Translations under genes and position numbers: made by a program
Notes under the pieces: model-generated
Seen by the model: the letters and a program-made list of their open reading frames with translations, nothing else
The model's database searches: none
Told to the model about the DNA's origin: nothing
In this document: positions 15,537 through 36,124 of the stretch, one piece after another
Layout: the number at the start of each line of letters is the position of its first letter
How positions within the stretch are numbered: the stretch's first letter is position 1
NCBI GenBank assembly: GCA_026418015.1
Contig: JAOACE010000008.1
Coordinates: 124,001 to 188,000, forward strand
Origin: Leptospiraceae bacterium
Lineage (GTDB): Bacteria > Spirochaetota > Leptospiria > Leptospirales > Leptonemataceae
Direction of reading: 5' to 3'
DNA: 64,000 nt

Positions 15537-15557
15537 TCGCTGGGCTCTGCACAGCGA
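15537..15557 (+). promoter_or_regulatory. Leader hairpin before the DUF2147 gene
   Basis: TCGCTG (15537-15542) pairs with CAGCGA (15552-15557) around a 9-base loop GGCTCTGCA, with one extra G-T pair possible at the base. It is strikingly GC-rich for this genome and lies just upstream of a strong AAAGGAGG at about 15565. The leader between the barrel terminator and the ATG is about 130 bases. It could be an mRNA stabiliser or a regulatory stem; no known riboswitch was recognised. Confidence 0.4.
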
Positions 15558-34650: not shown

Positions 34651-35514
34651 ATGCAAATAAAACAGTTCAACTTTACTACTAGCGATAATACAAGATTATT
34701 CAGTAAAATTTGGCTTCCAGAAGAATTTAACCCAGATAAAGTAATTGTATTTCATCACGGATTAGGTGAACATTGTGATCGCTATCAAAACCTTATCCAA
34801 TCTTTGATAGACCAACAATATTCTTTTTTTAGCTATGATATGCGAGGACATGGTCGTTCAGAAGGGAATCGAGGTGACGCAGAAAACATTCAACAATTGG
34901 TGATAGATTTAGAAGATTTTATTTATTTTATAAAAAAAGAATATAAAGTAAATCAACCAATTTTATTAGGACATTCACTAGGTGGTTTAATTACAAGCTA
35001 CTTTGCAGTAAGACATTCAAACCAAGAAGAAATAAAAGCATTGGTTTTAAGTGCGCCTGCATTAGAAGTATCCTTAAATTTTCTTCAGACTATTAAATAC
35101 TATATAGGATTATTTTTATTTTATGTTAAACCAGACTTAATATTAAAATCCGAAATTAACCCACAATTTCTCTCGCACGATAAGACTGTGGTTCAAAAGT
35201 ATATAGACGATCCACTCGTACATCCCTATCTTAGCGTTCGATTAGGAATTGATATCATGAACGCGATAAAAATTGTTCATCGACATGCTTCTAAGATTAA
35301 AATTCCTACTTGGATCGGACATGGCACTATGGATAAAATCACCTCTTCTACTGGATCCGAAAAATTTTTTCGACTAATCCGTTCAGAAAACAAGGTTTTA
35401 AGATTATATCAAGGTTTATATCACGAAATTTTTAACGAAGTTACAAATATTCCCTTAGAAGACTTAAAAGCGTGGATTTTGAGTTTAGAAAATACATCCA
35501 ATCATAAATATTAA
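34651..35514 (+). CDS. Alpha/beta hydrolase, monoacylglycerol lipase-like
   Basis: A 287-residue serine hydrolase. HHGLGEH near residue 31 forms the oxyanion segment, YDMRGHGRSEG near 65 is the family signature, and the nucleophile elbow is GHSLGG (about residues 108-113, Ser110). The late DK in IGHGTMDKITSS and the His in QGLYHEIFNE complete the Asp/His positions. The pattern is that of monoglyceride lipase/lysophospholipase proteins; a cytoplasmic role is expected because no signal peptide is present. It is tightly linked to pyrB (3 bases) and precedes the phasin-like gene. Confidence 0.85.
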   Translation: MQIKQFNFTTSDNTRLFSKIWLPEEFNPDKVIVFHHGLGEHCDRYQNLIQSLIDQQYSFFSYDMRGHGRSEGNRGDAENIQQLVIDLEDFIYFIKKEYKVNQPILLGHSLGGLITSYFAVRHSNQEEIKALVLSAPALEVSLNFLQTIKYYIGLFLFYVKPDLILKSEINPQFLSHDKTVVQKYIDDPLVHPYLSVRLGIDIMNAIKIVHRHASKIKIPTWIGHGTMDKITSSTGSEKFFRLIRSENKVLRLYQGLYHEIFNEVTNIPLEDLKAWILSLENTSNHKY

Positions 35515-35611: not shown

Positions 35612-35638
35612 TTGTCAGATTAGTGCAGTGCATAAAAT
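35612..35638 (+). promoter_or_regulatory. Candidate promoter of the phasin-like gene
   Basis: TTGTCA at 35612-35617 and TAAAAT at 35633-35638 with a short 15-bp spacer. The first TGC-N3-GCA repeat (35624-35632) falls between the two elements, a position typical of repressor operators. Confidence 0.4.
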
Positions 35639-35659
35639 TGGTATTGTGCAATGCACAAT
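35624..35659. promoter_or_regulatory. Two TGC-N3-GCA inverted repeats (putative operators)
   Basis: TGC-AGT-GCA at 35624-35632 and TGC-AAT-GCA at 35647-35655, centres 23 bp apart, about two helical turns. The second extends to a 7-bp perfect inverted repeat ATTGTGC-AAT-GCACAAT (35643-35659). Both lie between the hydrolase gene and the phasin-like gene. The half-site pattern matches what I recall for PhaR, the repressor of phasin genes in PHB-producing bacteria; identity of the regulator here is inference. Confidence 0.5.
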
Positions 35660-35679
35660 AAAATACAATGGAGGTTCCT

Positions 35680-36096
35680 ATGGAAAACTTACAAAAAACA
35701 TTACACGATTTACTCAATGCAGGAATTGGATTTTTTAGAGCAAGCGAAGAAAACGTAAAAAAAGCTATAAGCGAAATTGAAAAAGTTTACGATGAACTTA
35801 AACAAAAAGGTGCTGCGGAAAATAGCGAATTAGTCGTAAACCTAAGAAAAAGTCTAGATGATATTGTTAAACAAGTAGAAGATTTAAATTCTAAAGCAAA
35901 TCAAACTTTCGAAGAAGTTTCTAAACAAATCAACGAAAATTACCAAAAAATCGCACAAGAAATCGAAAAAATCGTACCTAAAGAACAACTCGAACAATAC
36001 AAAGCTAAATTAGACGAATTAAATGCATCTATTCAAACAAAAATTGAAGAATTAGCGAAACAGTTCAAAAAACAAGATAATGTTAGCAATTCCTAA
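35680..36096 (+). CDS. Phasin-like coiled-coil protein
   Basis: A small helical protein of 138 residues from the ATG at 35680. An ATG 12 bases upstream contains the GGAGG that is the Shine-Dalgarno of the second one, so the second is the likely start. It has no signal peptide. Residues 1-25 are amphipathic (LLNAGIGFFRASEENVKKAI), and the rest forms long coiled coils rich in Lys, Glu and Gln. This matches phasin or phasin-related proteins that coat polyhydroxyalkanoate granules, but coiled-coil composition alone is weak evidence. The operator-like repeats upstream support a regulated granule protein. It ends at a strong hairpin. Confidence 0.6.
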   Translation: MENLQKTLHDLLNAGIGFFRASEENVKKAISEIEKVYDELKQKGAAENSELVVNLRKSLDDIVKQVEDLNSKANQTFEEVSKQINENYQKIAQEIEKIVPKEQLEQYKAKLDELNASIQTKIEELAKQFKKQDNVSNS

Positions 36097-36108: not shown

Positions 36109-36124
36109 GCCCGGTTAGCCGGGC
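36109..36124. terminator. Bidirectional terminator between the phasin-like gene and flgI
   Basis: Perfect 6-bp GC stem GCCCGG/CCGGGC with a TTAG loop, lying between convergent genes. It is followed by TTATCT on the plus strand and preceded by AAATAAACTAT, so T-richness on either side is modest. Confidence 0.7.

Follow-up and report, generated by a model that had tools for sequence, protein, structure and literature searches.

A probable PhaR-type double operator at a phasin-related gene of a Leptospiraceae bacterium in which no polyhydroxyalkanoate synthase was found

Does a pair of TGC-N3-GCA inverted repeats in front of a phasin-related gene mark a PhaR-type regulatory circuit in a Leptospiraceae bacterium, and would such a circuit serve granules of polyhydroxybutyrate (PHB) there? 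The repeats lie in a 64,000-nucleotide (nt) stretch, referred to as the window (assembly GCA_026418015.1, contig JAOACE010000008.1; G000:C17:124001-188000 in our own handles, in which G denotes genomes, C contigs, L loci and f families), of a 2.91-Mb genome with an assembly completeness of 97.88%. Positions are those of the window unless a contig or locus is named. On sequence comparisons, a probability of roughly 0.8 is given to the reading that a PhaR-type repressor acts through the double operator at 35621-35658 on the phasin-related gene, with a small SLT-domain gene and, in most relatives, phaR itself under the same control.

The two sites, which an earlier note on this DNA had described as lying 23 base pairs (bp) apart, are both present, site 1 being TGCAGTGCA (35624-35632) and site 2 TGCAATGCA (35647-35655), with a start-to-start distance of 23 bp. 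When extended to 15 bp, site 2 is perfectly palindromic and site 1 a weaker palindrome with two mismatches to TTGTGCRNYGCACAA (Table 1). Single sites are common, with ten matches to TGCNNNGCA in the window (shuffle mean 3.5, maximum 8) and 39 to TGCANTGCA across the genome; the pair at 23-bp spacing occurs once in 2.91 Mb (control 0). Single TGCANTGCA sites are too common to serve alone as regulon markers and were rejected as such, and the extended palindrome was therefore used.

The phasin-related family was matched in 41 of 48 genomes of the class and above the cut-off in 40 (the sole match of G020 lies inside its phaR frame). Excluded beforehand were six weak matches, five of them lying in phaR frames, and the second piece of each of two split matches; of the 105 matches then taken, 99 were analysed, each of which exceeded the cut-off and had 160 nt or more of upstream sequence, and L156-L158 (under the cut-off) and L113, L130 and L131 (too near a contig end) were dropped. 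Within the 148 nt scored upstream of each gene, TGCNNNGCA was present at 65 of 79 phasin-related genes in genomes carrying phaR (200 shuffles: mean 5.3, maximum 13), and the TGC half-site with a gap of 3 ranked first among 576 combinations of half-site and gap. The logo of 97 sites from these genomes reads TTGTGC-RNY-GCACAA. With genomes filtered at 90% completeness or more and contamination left unfiltered, TGCRNYGCA preceded at least one phasin-related gene in all 20 genomes with phaR (45 of 58 genes) and in none of the six without it (0 of 14 genes). Operator and phaR are jointly missing, with the phasin-related gene kept, in at least two lineages (G003 of family f1; G025-G029 of f2). Successive sites (33 spacings) are 19-23 bp apart in 23 cases and 31 bp apart in seven, which is about two or three helical turns. 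In a selection of 16 genomes, TTGTGCRNYGCACAA, one mismatch being allowed, was found 1-39 times per genome in all 12 with phaR, was absent from G025, G027 and G033, and occurred twice in G036, a genome without phaR; the count of 39 comes from G041, where many copies lie inside a repeat array. The double site therefore very probably represents PhaR-type operators, and the earlier suggestion of PhaR-like, TGC-rich inverted repeats at a phasin-like promoter holds up, since the sites fit footprinted operators and co-occur with phaR in the more complete genomes.

The PhaR-like regulator that this suggestion called for is present, as the sole PF07879 protein of the genome (G000:C14:83586-83750, minus strand; 77 bits, cut-off 25), and PF07879 proteins were found in 31 of the 48 class genomes. 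An operator lies within 110 nt upstream of the phaR domain start at 24 of 30 phaR loci of the class, G042 having been dropped for its short upstream stretch. The phasin-related model NF047773 gave 30.5 bits (cut-off 35) on the PhaR C-terminus of G018 and weak matches in five phaR frames. A profile of our own gave no match to PhaR C-termini at default filters; when the filters were switched off, 13 of the 31 C-termini equalled or exceeded the best reversed control, the window genome's protein reaching only 2.8 bits.

A third kind of gene carries the operator. The only other perfect site of the genome (TTGTGCACTGCACAA, C27:185115-185129) has its end 15 bp upstream of the start of a gene for a small SLT-domain protein (lytic transglycosylase; PF01464, 77.1 bits, cut-off 21.3). 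Relatives of this gene are preceded by paired sites in G011 and G001, that of G001, at C2:862896, standing before a second SLT-like gene. TGCRNYGCA was found upstream of 25 of 27 small SLT loci, with two or more sites at 17 (background 0.016 per 330 nt); the loci without it are those of G042 (214 nt available) and G045. Loci were taken one per genome, with a frame of up to 300 amino acids, and were scored over at most 330 nt preceding the matched domain, second copies being uncounted; the 330-nt limit was chosen after a first look, and SLT genes played no part in motif derivation. By a small-SLT criterion set after the table had been seen (a score of 55 bits or more and a frame no longer than 300 amino acids), phaR and a small SLT gene occur together in 17 genomes of at least 90% completeness, phaR alone in three, SLT alone in none and neither in 12; the corresponding numbers for all 48 genomes are 24, seven, three and 14. 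The C27 gene is probably under PhaR-type control, as judged from its site and those of its relatives. Among the matches listed, the other paired sites, in L183, L203, L204 and L205, were rejected as targets, being inside open frames, and pairs occur also in genomes without phaR (one each in G027 and G031, two in G036, three in G037), which makes a pair by itself unspecific. Other extended sites among the matches listed were likewise rejected, being inside frames or near unrelated genes; one, from G018, stands at a phospholipase D-like gene, a single case not claimed as a target. An NlpC/P60 gene of G041 (L258:931-1446, minus strand) has a perfect operator 11 bp before it; this too is a single case and not claimed as a target, and its product may be a further wall enzyme regulated in the same way.

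The earlier note had also seen the geometry of a repressor at a candidate promoter. Putative -35 and -10 hexamers flank site 1 (Table 1), and TTGACA occupies the position matching the putative -35 in three congeners, of which G012 and G014 each show a single site. A promoter TTGTCA-15 bp-TAAAAT upstream of the phasin-related gene is plausible, and given that promoter, site 1 would fall between the -35 and -10 hexamers and run into the beginning of the -10, and site 2 would cover +1. This part of the claim is plausible and not proved; the hexamers are only 15 bp apart, and a sigma-70 scan (spacing 16-18) recovered no promoter.

That scan is one of several results that weigh against a PhaR-type operator. 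The motif is absent at 14 of the 79 phasin-related genes in genomes with phaR, and the looser TGCNNNGCA matches at one of 14 genes in genomes of at least 90% completeness without phaR. Operators are found in three of four less complete (below 90%) genomes without phaR (4 of 6 genes), which we read as phaR having been missed in incomplete assemblies. The co-occurrence of phaR and operator (Fisher test, 4e-6) was calculated with phylogeny ignored. No site was found in the stretch upstream of the window genome's own phaR (one of six misses among the 30 loci), and the protein that this gene encodes scores 65.8 bits against a cut-off of 109.45 with the PhaR equivalog TIGR01848; it is therefore called PhaR-type and not PhaR. 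The PF07879 proteins of the two relatives tested are below that cut-off as well.

From the sites, and by analogy with PhaR, we infer the binding, repression and signal as follows. A PhaR-type protein would probably bind both palindromes at 35621-35658 and, once bound, would block RNA polymerase at -10/+1 and hold the phasin-related gene off. It would leave the operators when attracted to a surface that phasin-like proteins coat as well, and the gene would be released. The same protein probably also controls the C27 SLT gene and, in the majority of relatives, phaR itself.

The alternative that survives best is an ordinary PHB system, in which polyhydroxyalkanoate (PHA) is made by a synthase that escaped detection, either because its gene falls within the 2% missing from the assembly or because it has diverged beyond the reach of the models used. 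In the available text of the reports on them, PhaR and phasins elsewhere serve PHB (PMC3206438, PMC6201568, PMC12542648). A search of the window genome with PhaC_N gave no match, and with a class III PhaC model at most 48 bits per stretch, the best matches being partial and lipase-like (two proteins with 64.8 and 52.1 bits and serine boxes GHSMGG and GFSLGG; three further matches with 13-16 bits); a synthase was not found. The class III model gives 273 bits (cut-off 365) to a near full-length PhaC-like protein of the relative G022 (L069:1420-2466), which has a GYCIGG box and whose weak 24.5 bits are the only PhaC_N match among the 48 class genomes. In G022 no phaR was found, and the operator is absent at its phasin-related gene. 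Since this protein was barely detected, PhaC_N is weak for class III, and the absence of a synthase is therefore well supported for the window genome and not for every relative; at 97.88% completeness that absence is strong, not absolute. We regard an ordinary PHB system as unlikely. The earlier idea that the organism makes granules is accordingly not borne out, and of phaC and phaR, the lack of which had been named as grounds for abandoning it, phaC was not found and a PF07879 PhaR-type protein is present. The PhaR-type circuit is probably uncoupled from PHA in the window genome. With no PHA synthase found, PHB is unlikely to be the releasing surface in that genome; our guess is another lipid inclusion or a membrane surface.

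Less probable still is that another regulator with a similar palindrome owns the operators and phaR merely travels along, as the siteless phaR of the window genome and the operators retained in three of four less complete genomes without phaR might suggest. The motif agrees with footprinted PhaR sites even in its RNY core and CAA flank, and operators stand at 24 of 30 phaR promoters and are absent in the more complete genomes without phaR; we hold this explanation to be improbable. Chance repeats without function, for which the commonness of single sites (ten in the window, 39 in the genome) might speak, were rejected as exceedingly improbable in view of the unique pair, the shuffle and co-occurrence counts, and conservation of the motif at related genes, SLT genes (far above background) and phaR loci.

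The product of the phasin-related gene, described earlier as a coiled-coil protein resembling phasins, exceeds the cut-off of the phasin-related domain NF047773 (Table 1) and falls short of the classical phasin models (PF05597, 23.4 versus 28.8 bits; TIGR01837, 21.6 versus 94.7 bits). Its predicted fold has five helices (mean predicted local distance difference test score 73.6), and a fold search against PDB returned no match at E <= 0.001. The start codon at 35680 follows GGAGG, and a further in-frame ATG lies at 35668. Among named records, the closest one found, 'Leptospiraceae bacterium KatS3mg129', encodes a phasin-related protein with 86% identity. Hydrolase_4 homologues stand upstream on the same strand in at least 13 of 40 genomes examined, all in the window genome's family, a lower bound because many loci are short; the congeners G012 and G014 have no such gene at the phasin-related locus.

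Table 1. Features of the phasin-related locus (window positions)
Feature	Position	Strand	Remarks
Hydrolase_4 (alpha/beta hydrolase) gene	34651-35514	+	directly upstream of the phasin-related gene; conserved neighbour in part of the family
Putative -35 hexamer TTGTCA	35612-35617	+	read from sequence
Operator site 1, TAGTGCAGTGCATAA	35621-35635		core 35624-35632; 2 mismatches to TTGTGCRNYGCACAA
Putative -10 hexamer TAAAAT	35633-35638	+	read from sequence; spacer 15 bp
Operator site 2, TTGTGCAATGCACAA	35644-35658		core 35647-35655; perfect palindrome
Ribosome-binding site GGAGG	35670-35674	+	read from sequence
Phasin-related gene, 138 amino acids	35680-36096	+	NF047773, 69.7 bits, cut-off 35
Terminator-like hairpin, bidirectional	36109-36124		3' of the phasin-related gene

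Two kinds of repeats were observed besides. In G041, which we take to be probably Turneriella parva, L264 (G041:C1:3472000-3480000) holds repeats up to 238 nt in length, spaced roughly 1 kb apart and containing the operator-like 15-mer TTGTGCGGCGCACCA, and among the matches listed for this genome similar sites extend to 3.64 Mb; the repeats look like an integron cassette array. In the window genome, an element TGGGCTNTGCACA recurs at C9:16-28, C9:72-84, C22:40-52, C22:96-108 and C26:92677-92689, with similar copies at C16:128069 and C17:139541 (window 15541-15553); four of the seven copies are at contig ends, and the element is possibly a mobile or dispersed repeat.

If the PhaR-type reading is correct, a repressor type, its operator and its phasin-like targets have been kept without a detectable synthase in at least the window genome, which makes the roles of PhaR-type proteins and phasins without plastic testable. 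It would also place a peptidoglycan-lytic gene under the same operator as a phasin-like gene and give a bacterial class that has received little study a concrete regulon. More tentatively, the circuit may be freed from PHA class-wide, with a PhaR-type protein that responds to the state of the envelope or to a lipid body other than PHA and sets phasin-like coat proteins and a lytic transglycosylase together; such a circuit, if real, would link storage or membrane lipid to cell-wall opening. The genome papers on Leptonema illini and Turneriella parva give, in their available text, long-chain fatty acids as carbon source, which is a hint, and no more, of lipid inclusions.

In open-licence PMC text, no title was found on PhaR or phasins in this class, and none combining phasin, lytic transglycosylase and regulon; genome papers exist whose available text holds PhaR, phasin and lytic transglycosylase. 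According to the available text of the studies concerned, PhaR has been studied in PHB producers with granules as the signal (PMC6201568, PMC12542648, PMC3206438), and PhaR-controlled phasin promoters carry two sites around -35 (PMC6201568, PMC12542648). The class logo fits the Bradyrhizobium consensus, the Herbaspirillum motif and the Sinorhizobium meliloti sites. PhbF of Herbaspirillum seropedicae represses a phasin gene and its own, and was footprinted on its own promoter at a like motif, TG[N]TGC[N]3GCAA, in a PHB producer of another phylum, unlike the window genome (PMC3206438). To the footprint-based consensus of Bradyrhizobium diazoefficiens PhaR, TGCRNYGCASMA (PMC6201568), site 2 fits at 12 of 12 positions and site 1 at 11 of 12. 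The phaP1 promoter of that species has two operators, like the window locus; unlike the window genome, the species is a PHB producer with a broad metabolic PhaR regulon, and a word search of the available text found neither transglycosylase, murein nor peptidoglycan (PMC6201568). AniA/PhaR of S. meliloti is, unlike the situation in the window genome, a PHB-bound regulator of a PHB producer; the available text does not mention transglycosylase, and its Table 3 lists one predicted site at SMc02856, a 'cell wall biosynthesis' gene (PMC12542648). As at the window locus, the S. meliloti phaP1 and phaP2 promoters have two palindromes each, and the phaP1 site, bound efficiently by His6-PhaR, is the identical 15-mer to the site at the window genome's SLT gene (PMC12542648).
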